Shown here in pieces: positions 1,356-62,866 of a stretch of DNA of 64,000 nucleotides; the stretch's first letter is position 1; every line of letters begins with the position of its first letter. Location: NCBI RefSeq assembly GCF_036373705.1, contig NC_089853.1, forward strand, positions 28,190,068 to 28,254,067, given 5' to 3'. The position numbers and the translations under genes were made by a program. Under the pieces are notes generated by a model. That model ran no database searches, was not told where the DNA came from, and was given only the letters and a program-made list of their open reading frames with translations. The DNA comes from Amia ocellicauda (Eukaryota > Chordata > Actinopteri > Amiiformes > Amiidae).

Positions 1356-3564
<2,209 letters not shown>

Positions 3565-4035
3565 GAAACGGAATGAAGTGAAGCCGTGGCGGAGATAAAA
3601 GCAGCAATGGGCCCGGAAAGCGCACCGAGTATCCGGGGAGGAGACTGCGATGCGCTGCAGGCCTGGTTTCCACCCACACAGCACAAGCCCGGCCCCTGTG
3701 CGGAGAGCAGAGCCCACTGCGCCGCCGCGCCGCGCCTGCGCTCTGACTTACAGCACGAAGCATCCGAAAATGTTTCTGAGAAACGTCTGCAATGAATGCT
3801 GATGGGATGTCGAAGCTGCCGTACCCCCATCTCGGGAAGACTTGGGTTAGGACTCGTATCGGAGAGCACAACACATGTTGGGGCAAGGATGCTAGGGGAG
3901 ACCATACTGTCATTATTTATTAAGTGCAAAGCATAGGATTTGAATTAAAGTTGGTGATATCAAATTCAGCTGTCAATTTTATGTCAGAGGTGCAGCTACA
4001 GGTTACTTTTTTCTTTGCTTAATTGCATTGCTTTC

Positions 4036-9700: not shown

Positions 9701-12700
9701 TACACACATTACTTTTCCTGTTTTTTGGCAAGAAATATGCTGTCAGTTATGACAGGCTTTCATTTCTCCTTGAAGGTGTCCTATGAAGATGTCAGTCTCT
9801 TTCACCATTGCTTTAGAGATGTCTTTGCAGGTATCTGTTCTAGAGACAGCATTTTTAAAAACCTTCTCATGGCGCTCTGTGTCTGTGTTGCAGCTTACTC
9901 TGGACGACCTGAGTGATAATCTGAAATGGCAGCAAATTACCCCCCTGGAGGCACAGAGAGGTATGGAGGTGATGGCACTTGCAGATGCTTTGACCCACTG
10001 TTGGAGAATATGTAATATCTAGCAAGTCTCCCTTAAATACCAAATTTTATAGTTTATATAAACAAATGTTACATTTTCTATTTCACACACAAATCGGGTT
10101 TCTGAGTTTGGCTGCATGTATCATGAATGGTTAACTTCTTATTTTGGAAATCCAGGTGGTGTTGTTTTTAGCACACTCAAATTGTGGAGGGAGGTGTCAA
10201 ATGCTGCAACGTTCTCTACCCATAGTTGGCACCCTGTCTTGCGTGTGTGGTATGAACCTCACATACCAGCTGCCTGCTTTTGCCTAATAATATTTTGCTC
10301 ACTCTTTTTAAAAAATGTTTTGTATATATAACTCTTTTACATATCTTTGTCTGTTGTTTACTTGATTGTGTGTGTGTGTGTGTTGCAGTGCTTCTGGAGA
10401 GGGAGAGGCAGGCACTGAGGGAAGTTCAGCTGGCACACAAGGAGGAGCTGCACCAGCTCAGACACTGGCACAAGAAGCACAGACTGCACTTGCTGGTATC
10501 AGCCCCCTACACACAGCCGCCTCCATCTCCTACACTCACCTACACACCAGCACAACTAATATCTAAAATATCTACAGCGCTGTAGGCAGGAGTGAAGGAG
10601 AGGTGCTGCTTTTGGATTGAAGAGTCTGGCACCAACTAACCATAAACACAATGGGTTGGACCCCCTTTGTTTGGAAAATGTTGTTCTTTTTGAAAACTGT
10701 ATAAAAAAGTGCAGCATATATCTGATCTTGCACAGAGACTTTGAAACAGGCCTTTACATTTCTCACAAAACTCAGAACATTAGATCACAAGACTTATGTC
10801 TATGTTGCCCTTAGGCTTCCATAACCCCAAGGAAAGTTAAGGGATTATAATAAGCCAGGCTTACTAATAAATATGCTTAATAATAAAAAATATATATTTA
10901 ATGAATGCAGATTACATGTTCCTGTTTGCAAAGTTGTTATCAGTTGGTGTTAGGTGTGTGTATTAAAGCAGCATATTTGTTGCAGGGTGAGGACTGGGCT
11001 GTTCCTAGAGAGCTGTCTGGTGACAGTGACAGCAGTGGCACAGAGAGCGTGCGCTCAGAGAACAGCTGTGGAGACCAGGAGCAGCCAGGAATGGGAGACC
11101 AGGTACTTTGCTCTCTGTGACGCTGTTGATATGAAACATACCTGTCAAACCCTGGATTCAAACCACTGTTTCAGGTAGGAGTGCCCCTAACAAGCCACAC
11201 ACATGGCACAGTATATATATACACTCACCTAAAGGATTATTAGGAACACCATACTAATACTGTGTTTGACCCCCTTTCGCCTTCAGAACTGCCTTAATTC
11301 TACGTGGCATTGATTCAACAAGGTGCTGAAAGCATTCTTTAGAAATGTTGGCCAATATTGATAGGATAGCATCTTGCAGTTGATGGCGATTTGTGGGATG
11401 CACATCCAGGGCACAAAGCTCCCGTTCCACCACATCCCAAAGATGCTCTATTGGGTTGAGATCTGGTGACTGTGGGGGCCAGTTTAGTACAGTGAACTCA
11501 TTGTCATGTTCAAGAAACCAATTTGAAATGATTCGACCTTTGTGACATGGTGCATTATCCTGCTGGAAGTAGCCATCAGAGGATGGGTACATGGTTGTCA
11601 TAAAGGGATGGACATGGTCAGAAACAATGCTCAGGTAGGCCGTGGCATTTAAACGATGCCCAATTGGCACTAAGGGGCCTAAAGTGTGCCAAGAAAACAT
11701 CCCCCACACCATTACACCACCACCACCAGCCTGCACAGTGGTAACAAGGCATGATGGATCCATGTTCTCATTCTGTTTACGCCAAATTCTGACTCTACCA
11801 TCTGAATGTGTCAACAGAAATCGAGACTCATCAGACCAGGCAACATTTTTCCAGTCTTCAACTGTCCAATTTTTCCTATTTGTAGTGGAGATGAGTGGTA
11901 CCCGGTGGGGTCTTCTGCTGTTGTAGCCCATCCGCCTCAAGGTTGTACGTGTTGTGGCTTCACAAATGCTTTGCTGCATACCTCGGTTGTAACGAGTGGT
12001 TATTTCAGTCAAAGTTGCTCTTCTATCAACTTGAATCAGTCGGCCCATTCTCCTCTGACCTCTAGCATCAACAAGGCATTTTCGCCCACAGGACTGCCGC
12101 ATACTGGATGTTTTTCATTTTTCACACCATTCTTTGTAAACCCTAGAAATGGTTGTGCGTGAAAATCCCAGAAACTGAGCAGATTGTGAAATACTCAGAC
12201 CGGCCTGTCTGGCACCAACAACCATGCCACGCTCAAAATTGCTTAAATCACCTTTCTTTCCCATTCAGACATTCAGTTTGGAGTTCAGGAGATTGTCTTG
12301 ACCAGGACCACACCCCTAAATGCATTGAAGCAACTGCCATGTGATTGGTTGGTTAGATAATTGCATTAATGAGAAATTGAACAGGTGTTCCTAATAATCC
12401 TTTAGGTGAGTGTATATATACAGATACACGCTTAATATTATTCTTAAAAAATAGTAGAATCAATAAGTTGCTTTCATTTTTCTAAACTTTCTTTCCAGCT
12501 GTGCTGGTCAGATGTGGAGCCCAAGGGAAGCCTGCCCTCAGTCAGTCTCCAAGCTGGGGGAGAGCAGCTCCCTGTGGGCTGGACCAAGCACATCCTGCAG
12601 CCTGATGGACAGAAGGAGGAGACAGGAGCGGTGGCCACGGCGTCTGGGGGAGGACAAGGCCTTGCAGGTGATAGAGAGTTTTTGTGTTTGTGGATTAATA

Positions 12701-13503: not shown

Positions 13504-16500
13504 CAGTATTGTAAGTGGTGCTGTTTTTGTAGTTACAAGGTTAGGACACATTGCAAAGCAAACGCAATTGTAGATAATTTCTGATTTATTTATATAGAAT
13601 TATTATTATTATTATTATTATTATTATAATAATTATAATTATTATTATTATTATTGGCTCCTCATTTAAAGGGCAAGAGAGCAGCAGTGAGATTGAGTGT
13701 ACTCAGTCTGTTGTCTCTTCACCAGGCTGCACTGCAGATTGCTGCTCTGGAGGCTAAGCTGGAGGAGGTGAGGGAGAACAGTCGTCGGAAACAGAAGAAA
13801 CTCAGGAAGCTCCTGAGGAAATCTCAGGCCATACTGGGAGAGGTAGGGGTTTTACATGCCATCACTGAAATGTACTTTTCACAGCAGCATGTAGTAGCTT
13901 ATTCTGAGTGTTCTTGGTATTTTCTGTTTATTTGATTATATCTGATGTCAGTGTGCAGTTCCAGTCCAGCCAGACCTCCAACCTCCAGCCATCCTCATCA
14001 GTACAGTCCCTGAGTCAAGTGCTATCAGACACCCAGCACCAGGTAAGACCTCCCCTGCTCTTAGCACCTCTAGTCAGACTATGACTATTTACATTTACTG
14101 TATCAATCTGTAGAAATACAAATAAACTATTTGGAAAGAATTTGGTGAGAGGTAAGAAAGCTAATTGTTCACATCCTCTTGTTATCCACAGAAAATGGGA
14201 TGTTAGACTTAAAATGATGTGTGGAGTGTGCTTCTGTATTGTTTTTCTTTTTGCTATATACAGTTATATGAAGGTTTTAAAAGCAGGTTTGACATATGGA
14301 CAGTTATTTCTAGGACAATTTTCCACAGTTACCACAGAATGCTTTGAAGGTTCTTTGACCATCTACTCACGTGGTGTTGACAGAAGCTGTTGATTACTGG
14401 CCCAGTTCTGATGTACCAGCAGTCCCGATCTGCTCCTCTGGTCCGGGGGTAGTGAGAGAAGAGGCAGCGCAGGTGTCACAGGGAGCTGGGCACAGGAGTC
14501 TGTACTCTCAGGTGATAGCCTTCACTGACACCCTCAGCAGCATACTGCTCCAAGGTAATCCCATGGCTTCCCAGTACTAACTGTGCAGACTGTGATCTGA
14601 GAATAACCACAACAGTCTGGAAAATTTACCAAATGGAAATATCTCACCAACACCCTCTAACAGGTGGGAATTTGTTAGTTGATGCTTCCGAGAAGTCTGA
14701 GATGAACAGAGGTACTACTGACCTTTTGACACAACAACAGCTTGAGGCGGCTTTGAGTCATCTCCAGACCCAGTTGGAAAGGACTACGACTGGTGAATAA
14801 ACTAGCATTTCAAAGGGAGAAAAGATTTTCATCCTTTTAAACACAACAAAGCAAATCACACAGTTTACCTGATTGGGTGATAATGGCTTCTCTGCAACAT
14901 TAACCTTCTCTGTTAACATTCTAGCTCTTCACACTTTACTTAGTACCACCCACTCGCCAGCACAGCCCTCAAGCTGGGACTCGGAAGAGACAGAAATGGA
15001 GGTCAAAGGCCAAGATATGTAAGTGCTGTAATTGTGTCAAATGTGGAGATACAAAGCCCAATACAAACTGAATATTCACATTAGCTATTTAGATTCTCAT
15101 GTAAGCAGTTGATATTATAGATGATGGCAGAAACCACCATAATGGAGAGGTGTATTATTTATAATAATTACTGTACACTGCTGTCATTGGAAATCGATGA
15201 AAACCTGATGCTTTACATATGATGTGAACAGATTATATAGACCACATCTGGAACATCATCAGTCTACTCAAAAGCTGGAATAAAATACTTTGAAGCACTG
15301 TGACAGGAAGGTTCATGTTAAAGTCTTCAATATCAAATATCAAATTCAAGCAAGATCATATTGTGATATACACCGATCAGCCATAACATTATGACCACTT
15401 GCCTAATATTGTGTAGGTCCCAAAACAGCCCTGACCCGTCGAGGCATGGACTCCACTAGACCTCTGAAGGTGTGCTGTGCTATCTGGCACCAAGACGTTA
15501 GCAGCAGATCCTTTAAGTCCTGTAAGTTGCGAGGTGGGGCCTCCATGGATCGGACTTGTTTGTCCAGCACATCCCACAGATGCTCGATTGGATTGAGATC
15601 TGGGGAGTTTGGAGGCCAAGTCAACACCTTGAACTTGTGATTCATCAGACCAGGCCACCTTCTTCCCTTGCTCCGTGGTCCAGTTCTGATGCTCACATGC
15701 CCATTGTAGGCACTTTCGGCAGTGGACAGGGGTCAGCATGGGCACCCTGACTGGTCTGCGGCTACGCAGCCCCATACGCAACAAACTGCGATGCACTGTG
15801 TGTTCTGACACCTTTCTACCAGAAACAGCATTCACTTTTTCAGCAATTTGAGCTACAGTAGCTTGTCTACGCTCCCCACGTGCATCAATGAGCCTTGGCC
15901 GCCCATGACCCTGTTGCCGGTTCACCGCTTTTCCTTCCTTGGACCACTTTTGATAGGTACTGACCACTGCAGACCGGGAACACCCCACAAGAGCTACAGT
16001 TTTGGAGATGCTCTGACCCAGTCGTCTAGCCATCACAATTTGGCCCTTGTCAAAGTCGCTCAGATCCTTACGCTTGCCCATTTTTCCTGCTTCTAACACA
16101 TCAACTTTGAGGACAAAATGTTCACTTGATGCCTAATATATCCCACCCACTGACAGGTGCCATGATAACGACATTATCAGTGTTATTCACTTCACCTGTC
16201 AGTGGTCATAATGTTATGGCTGATCAGTGTATAATATTTATTTCAGTGATTATTTGTTCCCTTCTGAGTCATTTGTTTGACCCCTGCAGTTCGGACTCTG
16301 TCACAGAGTGTAAATCCTCTGAACAGACAGACGATACACTGGGGCCCACGGAAACAGAGATGAAGGTAAATGGAAGTCAGACGCAATTCATAAGTTCCCC
16401 ATCTTAACCAATCCTGGGTATATAAGCACACTGGAATGCAGGATATTAGAACTGCCTGCTCACACAATGTTCCTTTCCCTGGCCATTTGCTCAGACATGC

Positions 16501-19965: not shown

Positions 19966-20683
19966 ACTTACATTTATACTTTTTTGATGTAGTCTTTATT
20001 GTAAATATGACTCTTGTTACACAGAGCAGGAACTTTTTTGTGTATTGTTCCTCAAACTTCTTTATTTGCAGTTCTAAAATTCCCATAACTTAAATCAAAC
20101 ATTTCTTTGTCTCAGGGCCATTGCACAGTCAAACACACCTAAATCAAAACTGCAGTGCAATCCAAAATATTTGTATGGAAGTTCCATTCAATGTCTGAAA
20201 ATGTCAGTTACCTGTTTGCACAGAAATGTAGTGATGTATTGTTTTAATATTGCAGTCACACCATACTATAATGTTGCAGGGCCATATAGCAAATCTTTTT
20301 TTCTACTTCTCGATACAGCATTATTTGTTTGATTCCTTTTTTCCAAAACAAAATTATTATTCAGTTCTAGTGAATTACAAGAATAAGTTAATCCTTCAAA
20401 CAACAGAACAAAGAGTAGGGTAAGCTACAGTGCAACAAATACAGTTTTAGCATAAAATTGAGTCTAACCCAGACATTCATTAATTTTGAATAAGCTGTGT
20501 ACCAAAAGTGTCCAAAGGTTATATAACACACCTCCCTATTCTTACAGGCATGCCTTGCATAAATCCTGTGATGTAGCTTTTTAGCCAACCTTTAGACCCT
20601 ACACAGCACATAACTGTGCTGAAAGAGTTATTGATTCCCAGTCCTGAACATTTGTGCCCTCTGGAACCATTCTGTTTTGTTTT

Positions 20684-20691
20684 TATAAATA
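20684..20691 (+). promoter_or_regulatory. TATA box of the syncollin/RNase-like gene
   Basis: TATAAATA placed so that transcription would start near 20712-20716. That is after the first ATG (20700) but about 25 bases before the second (20739), so it supports the second ATG as the true start. The gene would then have a very short unspliced 5' UTR. An upstream noncoding exon cannot be ruled out. Confidence 0.5.
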
Positions 20692-20738
20692 CTATTTAAA
20701 TGCTACTGCAGTTCCTATATTTTCACAAAGCAGTGAAC

Positions 20739-21506
20739 ATGAAGGCAGCGCTCTGTGTTTTCCTCGCACTTTTTGTGCTTGCACAATCTGTGGATATCCC
20801 AGTTGCTAGCTGCTTCTCCACAGAGATTGCTAAACCTGGCACAGAAACCAAAACAGCTTGTGCTCGTCTGTACACCGAGGGCTGTGAGCCGGTCTTAGTG
20901 AAGCCTGGAGAGAAAGGTAGTTTGAGAAGGAGCCATGGGCCTGGCATGAAGGTGACTGTCTCAGAGGGCTGTGTTCTTCAACTGTGGAGCCCAGAAGGAA
21001 ATCAAGTCGCAGGTTCAGCCTCTTTGGGGCAAGGGGAATATGCAACAGAGCTTCCTGCACTGCTGAAGGAGCTAGCCTCTGTTTACCAGTGTGACTGTGG
21101 ACAACTTGAAGCACATTCTCGGAGCAAACGGGCCACTTACAACGATTTCCTGAATCGTCATATAATCTCGCCCTCTCCGCTGCCCAACACCAACCAGGAC
21201 TGGACCCAGTTGATGATAAACCGTGGGATCTTCGGGCGGCCGATCAACACATTCATTCATGGGGAGATTGACCAGATTTTGCAGGCTTTTGACCTGGAGG
21301 ACAAGAAGCTCCAGTATAGAAACCGGGTGGGCCTAGTTCACTGGAGCAAGTACAGGATGCCCACCACCAATCTCCGTCTCGGTGAAAACCAATACATGGT
21401 TGCGGTCAAGGCACGTCCGAAGTACGTTGCTCTGTCCTTTAGAAATGGCCTTCCTGTCCATTTGGATAAAGTCTCCTCAAGATCACCAGAGAACAGACAG
21501 AACTAG
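20739..21506 (+). CDS. Secreted syncollin-like / cysteine-less RNase A-like fusion proprotein
   Basis: Single-exon frame of 255 residues. Residues 1-17 form a signal peptide (MKAALCVFLALFVLAQS). Residues about 24-121 look like syncollin, a secretory-granule protein: ACARLY, then CVLQLWSPEG, ending YQCDC, with six Cys (25, 41, 49, 78, 118, 120) in a syncollin-like order. RSKR at 128-131 is a furin-type site; cleavage would release a 124-residue C-terminal domain, the length of RNase A. That domain shows RNase A landmarks: FLNRHI (His141 = His12), RPINTFIHG (Thr171 = Thr45; Arg167 in the place of Lys41) and NGLPVHLD (His241 = His119; identical to angiogenin in this motif). It has no cysteine, whereas RNase A has eight and angiogenin six. 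RNase A genes also have a single coding exon. The start at 20739 is chosen over 20700 because the signal peptide begins there and a TATA box lies at 20684. Homology is by motif; function is unknown. Confidence 0.85.
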   Translation: MKAALCVFLALFVLAQSVDIPVASCFSTEIAKPGTETKTACARLYTEGCEPVLVKPGEKGSLRRSHGPGMKVTVSEGCVLQLWSPEGNQVAGSASLGQGEYATELPALLKELASVYQCDCGQLEAHSRSKRATYNDFLNRHIISPSPLPNTNQDWTQLMINRGIFGRPINTFIHGEIDQILQAFDLEDKKLQYRNRVGLVHWSKYRMPTTNLRLGENQYMVAVKARPKYVALSFRNGLPVHLDKVSSRSPENRQN

Positions 21507-22158
21507 CTTATTCAACTATGTTTATTATACAAGCATTATATACGCTGTCTGATAATATTATGAAATGATCTACAATTAAGTGTTAAAGGCATGAACTATG
21601 CATTATTATGGTCCATTATAAAATGTACAACTGCAGCACTAGAGGGGTGAAGTAAAATACTTTAAAAACATACTTTCTGTTCCAATCTAATCCTTTTTTA
21701 GTTGAATTACATAGATGTTGCTGTGGACAAAGTTTAAACAGATATAAGTACAAGATCAAATAGAACTTATTAAAGGACTGCATATGTAAGCTGCTTAATT
21801 TTTCTGTAGATTCAAGAGATTAGCTTTTTAAAGAGCTTTGTTTTGGAGTTTAAAAATGAACATGTTCCACAATTCACCATCTGTAGCTACACAAAAAGGA
21901 AAGAGATTTCTATATTTTAACTCTTACCTACTTAGGTTGTTTTTGTGAATGTTTATGATTAAAATATAGACATACTGATTAACTGTCCTAAAGTAACCTC
22001 GTAAAAACCCATTGCTTTTGCCTCGAGAGTATGAAACAAATTGCTGTGAAATTTAATTTTGCATGAAAACCACATGAAAACGACACATTGATTATGTTGT
22101 ATGGTACTGATGTTAAATGGACTTTCAGTGTGCAACAAATACTCATAAAATGTTTTTT

Positions 22159-22164
22159 AATAAA
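22159..22164 (+). terminator. Polyadenylation signal of the syncollin/RNase-like gene
   Basis: AATAAA about 650 bases after the stop codon, followed by TG- and T-rich sequence. It implies a 3' UTR from 21507 to about 22185, without other recognisable content. Confidence 0.5.

Positions 22165-62001: not shown

Positions 62002-62866
<865 letters not shown>

Follow-up and report, generated by a model that had tools for sequence, protein, structure and literature searches.

A syncollin-like domain joined to an RNase A domain in four genes of one fish genome

Four intact genes, lying on three contigs of a 988-Mb genome and found among the loci that were read, encode a leader, a syncollin-like domain and an RNase A domain in the same order, and we regard this two-domain architecture as very probably real and recurrent. 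One of these genes, F1, lies in the window, the stretch of 64,000 nucleotides analysed here, which is part of contig C4 of the genome that was used for all genome-wide searches; the other three are termed F2, F3 and F4. RNase A is the textbook case of a single-domain family held together by disulfides. No description of a syncollin-RNase A fusion was found in the open literature searched, as judged by titles and the beginnings of abstracts, "syncollin-like" had no match in the literature searched, and a two-domain vertebrate RNase A goes unmentioned in the excerpts of PMC2582337, PMC6794472, PMC5081542, PMC9086364 and PMC6313885. We lean, by a modest degree, towards the reading that F1 codes for a protein, that it belongs to a two-domain branch of the vertebrate RNase A family and that it works by the mechanism proposed below. 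Such a branch, with a member that has a cysteine-free RNase half and a convertase-type site, would open new ways to study the storage, targeting and activation of secreted RNases, and F1 would show how far the RNase A fold persists without disulfides. The fusion also gives syncollin an RNase partner, which is a hint at the function of syncollin.

The F1 gene and its RNase A-type half

The F1 frame has the structure that the sequence-only reading had assigned to it, with a probable signal peptide, a cysteine-rich domain, RSKR and exactly 124 further residues all present in one open frame of 255 codons (Table 1). The leader is hydrophobic in translation, and the landmarks CARLY, C-x-L-x-x-W-S, Y-x-C-x-C, RSKR, FLNRH, RPINTFIHG and NGLPVHLD were confirmed. 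An additional in-frame ATG is located upstream, at 20700; given the TATAAA at 20684, the ATG at 20739 would be the better start, and transcription probably begins downstream of the one at 20700. A second TATA-like pattern, TATATA, is found at 20520, and on the 3' side ATTAAA occurs at 21769 and 21958, before the AATAAA. The genes adjoining F1, inspected by eye, provided no synteny argument. Exon-like frames upstream of F1 (window 1359-3595, minus strand) presumably represent exons of cyclophilin B (PPIB), and we take three further minus-strand stretches of the window (11257-12114, 15389-16132 and 62260-62577) to be remnants of Tc1/mariner-like transposases.

Table 1. Features of F1 in the window, and related genes elsewhere in the genome
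Feature	Contig or locus	Positions	Strand	Description
F1 reading frame	C4, window	20739..21506	+	255 amino acids and stop; unbroken from ATG to stop, no intron required
Probable F1 signal peptide	C4, window	20739..20789	+	about 17 residues; by eye from the translation, putative cleavage point
F1 syncollin-like N-terminal domain	C4, window	20790..21119	+	about 110 residues, six cysteines; sequence comparison
F1 RSKR	C4, window	21120..21131	+	residues 128-131, furin-type motif at the domain border
F1 RNase A-type domain	C4, window	21132..21503	+	124 residues after RSKR; sequence comparison
TATA-box-like TATAAATA (TATAAA)	C4, window	20684..20691	+	55 bp 5' of the ATG at 20739; pattern match, putative function
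AATAAA	C4, window	22159..22164	+	first exact poly(A) signal 3' of the F1 stop; pattern match, putative
F2	C24			single frame, 252 codons, intact; found by tblastn with F1
F3	C20, L009			single frame: leader, CARLL...CELTLW...CSC, RNase domain with six cysteines
F4, exon 1	C20, L034	8508-8873		leader and N-terminal domain
F4, exon 2	C20, L034	9034-9384		RNase domain
L032 remnant	C20, about 3.495 Mb	L032:9370-9998	+	RNase gene (L007) that retains, of the N-domain exon, only about the last 24 residues before the intron
L035 gene	C20, about 3.846 Mb	L035:5460-6480	-	leader exon matching that of F4; RNase exon with a frame break
True syncollin	C5	L026:1444-1842	+	coding part in a single frame; Pfam syncollin (PF15138) 173.2 bits

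The C-terminal half of F1 had been called RNase A/angiogenin-like, and on sequence comparison we place it firmly in the RNase A superfamily, but two hallmarks of that family are missing from it. Its best match among PDB sequences was angiogenin (phmmer, E 4.5e-5, query residues 4-120), which it resembles in the INTFIHG and NGLPVHLD blocks, in length and in the positions of the histidines, with His141 and His241 at both catalytic histidine positions. Unlike angiogenin, it has Arg167 at the position of the catalytic lysine and no cysteine at all after residue 131, the place of the first conserved cysteine being taken by Trp155; F1 as a whole adds a furin-type site and an N-terminal domain. With the Pfam RNase A profile, F1 scored 18.2 bits (E 0.0034), below the curated cut-off of 23.1, and it was not among the 22 places returned by the genome search with this profile (19 of them above cut-off), whereas F2, F3 and F4 exceeded the cut-off with 36.7, 57.1 and 109.5 bits, respectively, for the domain or the whole frame. 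A search of NCBIfam with three queries returned no family, and AlphaFold, run on single sequences without an alignment, gave a pLDDT of 33 for the whole of F1 and 42 for its RNase half.

The features of the RNase A family given in the excerpts of PMC2582337 are a triad of two histidines and one lysine, three conserved disulfides and a length of 119 ± 15 residues. The triad is incomplete in F1 and F2 and complete in F3 and F4 (by eye for F2 to F4), and the three conserved disulfide positions are unfilled in F1. Without the catalytic lysine and without cysteines, the C-terminal half of F1 is thus related to RNase A but lacks two of the features that define the family, and RNase activity of F1 is doubtful because arginine replaces the lysine and all RNase-half cysteines are gone. 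To our knowledge, the CdiA toxin of Yersinia kristensenii provides the closest precedent for a disulfide-free RNase A-type domain. The excerpts of PMC9086364 describe CdiA-CT as having an RNase A-type fold without disulfides, a likeness to F1 that is one of description only, and, unlike F1, CdiA-CT forms the terminal portion of a CdiA protein from bacteria. According to the excerpts of PMC6313885, the mammalian non-canonical RNases 9-13 are RNase A relatives with an altered N-terminal region, as the fusions are; they share the three most conserved disulfides, and a syncollin-like domain is not described for them there. The same excerpts give CKxxNTF as a signature of human canonical RNases; it is present only in F4 (CKEINTF), the corresponding residues being GRPINTF in F1, DRDMNTF in F2 and CKPTNMF in F3.

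Among the loci analysed, the RNase domains closest to that of F1 by phmmer were those of F2 (E 9.5e-8) and of L017 (2.7e-7), a member of a group of RNase genes near 9.5 Mb of C20, while blastp placed L016, of the same group, first and F2 second. This group consists of eight places with similar RNase A genes, several of them near-identical, at C20:9.52-9.62 Mb (L016-L018 and L020-L024). Its members have tryptophan at the first conserved cysteine position, as do F2 and L012, and a longer C-terminus with a cysteine.

Related genes with the same order of halves

F2 was retrieved from the genome by tblastn with the whole F1 frame (E 7.9e-11), and in a pairwise comparison the two proteins matched across F1 residues 35-245 (E 5e-16). 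F3 was located from the reading frames of the RNase loci, and F4 by a motif scan across 20 genome stretches. The two F4 exons are separated by a putative phase 0 intron of 160 bp with GT-AG ends, as judged from the sequence. When F2 was used as the tblastn query, F1 (E 1.2e-10), a partial copy of the F2 5' end, the RNase exon of F4, F3 and other RNases were found; the match to F3 (E 0.0014) spans F2 residues 69-241 and so covers both halves. The partial copy is a tandem one (C24:20066282-20066374, minus strand, L039) that stops in a truncated leader, with two segments aligned by blastn, 465 and 734 bases long, that are 98.9% and 99.6% identical to F2, respectively.

The number of cysteines in the RNase half is zero in F1, two in F2 and six each in F3 and F4, and the latter two retain the catalytic His/Lys/His together with all six. 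In the N-terminal half, the six cysteines of F1 (C25, C41, C49, C78, C118 and C120) are matched in order by F2, and four are kept in F3 and F4. From these sequences, cysteines of the family seem to have been lost in even numbers. The fusions have an RNase A domain, probably secreted, in common with fish single-domain RNases such as zebrafish ZF-1 to ZF-4, as described in the excerpts of PMC2582337, and L008 of the present genome; F3 and F4 also share with these the two histidines, the lysine and the six cysteines, whereas the RNase half of F1 has neither this lysine nor any cysteine. What the fusions add to the single-domain proteins is an N-terminal domain of about 80-110 residues.

A genome-wide tblastn search with the F4 exon retrieved F4 and F3, followed by the remnant in L032 (E 2.8e-5), a match on contig C7 (0.14) and the leader of L035 (0.18); the weaker matches after these were taken as noise. 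L032 and L035 are two damaged relatives of the fusion family in the C20 cluster. The signal peptide of L032 is gone, and what remains of the N-domain exon precedes the RNase exon. In L035, no syncollin-like domain is in frame between the leader exon and the RNase exon, and this gene is a possible natural case of domain loss.

The existence of damaged family copies, the arginine in place of lysine, the absence of cysteines from the C-terminal half and the long branches in an RNase-domain tree, with 3.23 changes per column for F1 and 1.53 for F2, would all agree with F1 being a decaying, non-functional copy, in which the lost cysteines and lysine reflect relaxed constraint. We consider such decay highly unlikely. 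The F1 frame runs through 255 codons without a stop or frameshift despite an identity to F2 of only 26-29%, both histidines, the six N-half cysteines and the hydrophobic leader have been retained, and a TATA-box-like element is present.

The N-terminal half and syncollin

Syncollin attaches to the membranes of zymogen granules and is also present in neutrophils; antibacterial activity has been reported for it, and its role is unsettled. Neutrophil syncollin appears in the title of a paper cited in the excerpts of PMC5081542. The present genome has a true syncollin on contig C5 (Table 1), with which the fusions share a leader, a CA-x-L start, a C-x-L-T-x-W-type core, a C-x-C end and a coding part in one frame; unlike syncollin, the N-terminal halves of the fusions are missed by the Pfam model and run on into an RNase domain, and those of F3 and F4 are shorter. 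The description of this half as syncollin-like in the sequence-only reading was upheld as remote homology, detected with family profiles, shuffles and landmarks, but not as a match to the Pfam syncollin model (PF15138, cut-off 32.8 bits), which listed none of the four N-halves at E values up to 10 in a test in which the HMMER filters discard most weak matches.

Searches were run against 1540 frames, each 60 residues or longer, taken from the loci analysed and from the window. With a profile of the four N-halves, the top non-member was the genome's own syncollin (E 0.0068), and the same was true of a profile of F1 and F2 (E 0.0042). The profile of F3 and F4 retrieved F2 and then F1 next (E 0.022 and 0.12), with syncollin only 19th, and a profile of F3, F4 and syncollin together found F2 at 3.2e-4 and F1 at 1.4e-3. 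Syncollin as a lone query ranked F2 4th, after two unrelated frames, F4 33rd, F3 145th and F1 192nd. When syncollin was shuffled, only 1 of 20,000 shuffles scored as high as, or higher than, the real sequence with the F1-F4 profile. The corresponding numbers from single-sequence comparisons of syncollin with F1, F2, F3 and F4 were 358, 31, 29 and 1 of 20,000, and in the opposite direction 178, 25, 94 and 29 of 20,000, the result being weakest for F1. Alignment of the N-half family with syncollin by hhalign gave a P value of 0.0002 and a probability of 46%. Nine columns are invariant among F1-F4 and syncollin, including the CA-x-L start, the core cysteine and tryptophan and the final C-x-C, and the landmarks CA-x-L, C-x-x-x-x-W and C-x-C follow one another in the order seen in syncollin.

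Based on these comparisons, the N-terminal half of the fusions is likely to be a remote relative of syncollin. One could instead envisage that it is an unrelated, lineage-specific pro-region with a CxC end that is similar by chance, as the failure of the Pfam model with all four N-halves, the modest hhalign probability and the low rankings (syncollin 19th with the F3 and F4 profile, F1 192nd with syncollin) would suggest. We find this explanation unlikely, however, since syncollin was the first non-member for two profiles, its score with the family profile was reached by a single shuffle in 20,000, and the start, core and end motifs occur in all five aligned sequences.

The N-terminal half of F1 alone, used as a query against the genome, found only itself and two noise matches (E 5 and 9). 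Among PDB sequences, the best match of the N-half had an E value of 1.3 as a single sequence and 0.84 as a profile, and syncollin itself had no match. Two matches of the syncollin model, on C29 (E 0.163) and C9 (E 5.09), contained stops and were taken as chance, the C29 sequence having been inspected. A sub-threshold match of the C5 syncollin to the Pfam beta/gamma-crystallin model (17.5 bits against a cut-off of 27.3, E 0.0048) hints, as a single observation, at a beta/gamma-crystallin fold for syncollin.

Cleavage, proposed mechanism and origin

F1, a predicted secreted protein, carries R-x-[KR]-R between its domains, as a convertase substrate would, and only 90 of 20,000 shuffles of the F1 protein had this motif within residues 121-136. 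A stored, convertase-cut proprotein, as proposed in the sequence-only reading, is a fair interpretation of F1, with RSKR at the domain border, but not of F2, F3 and F4, none of which was found by eye to have R-x-[KR]-R between its halves. Because the furin-type site is present in one gene of four, cleavage is not the rule for the family, and furin processing of all the fusions was rejected. For F1 itself, cleavage at RSKR is fairly probable on the strength of the motif and its position. The absence of the site from its three relatives leaves appreciable, though lesser, weight for the alternative that F1 stays uncut at RSKR and acts, like them, as an intact two-domain protein; on the other side, RSKR falls at the domain border, a cut after it would make the first catalytic histidine residue 10 of the mature protein, and R-x-K-R is a good furin consensus.

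In the mechanism that we propose, the N-terminal domain would fold independently on its own disulfides and would either sort the protein into secretory granules or attach it to membranes or microbial glycans. The RNase would be stored and then released as a tethered effector in host defence or digestion, F3 and F4 being ordinary RNases borne by the N-domain module. F1 would be cut at RSKR by furin-like convertases in the late Golgi, and this would free a 124-residue, cysteine-free RNase-like protein with both catalytic histidines and with arginine in place of lysine. The freed half would be expected to cleave RNA weakly or not at all and might function through binding to RNA or to surfaces. 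The granule- or surface-targeting role of the N-terminal half is put forward tentatively; the sequence-only reading had suggested that this half could serve as a chaperone, an inhibitor or a granule-targeting part.

The RNase domains were compared in a tree of 12 rows, comprising F1 and 11 of the 22 Pfam RNase A places; L025, the broken or partial L011, L013, L014 and L019, the near-copies L017, L020, L023 and L024, as well as two places that have no locus, were omitted. F3 and F4 were separated from F1 and F2 with a support of 82/87 and on long branches. The tree decides little, because five of its nine inner branches are open, and its well-supported branches are compatible with one origin of the fusion. 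A bolder view would be that the syncollin-RNase order is ancestral in fish RNase A genes, the single-domain ones having lost their front part, and that F1 is furin-activated and releases a disulfide-free RNase A-type domain. We hold this combination to be quite unlikely; if it were true, the disulfide-free RNase domain of F1 would be able to work in the cytosol and in reducing media.

A single two-domain lineage has a competitor, to which we assign clearly less than an even chance, namely that the fusion arose repeatedly or that the front part is an exchangeable leader exon. The distribution of fusion and non-fusion labels on the tree needs four changes, not one of 200 bootstrap trees united the four fusions, and in L035 the leader exon is present but the N-domain is missing. 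Against repeated fusion, the tree is poorly supported and has long branches, its well-supported part allows a single origin, and the N-halves of F1/F2 and F3/F4 retrieve each other by profile. The comparison of F3 with F4 also argues for the exchange of front parts, in that 300 of 315 aligned bases are identical in the N-half as against 170 of 315 in the RNase half. Over the 105 codons of leader and N-half, dN is 0.036 and dS 0.083, and the contrast between the halves could reflect either a leader exon that was exchanged or homogenised or an RNase half that diverged fast.
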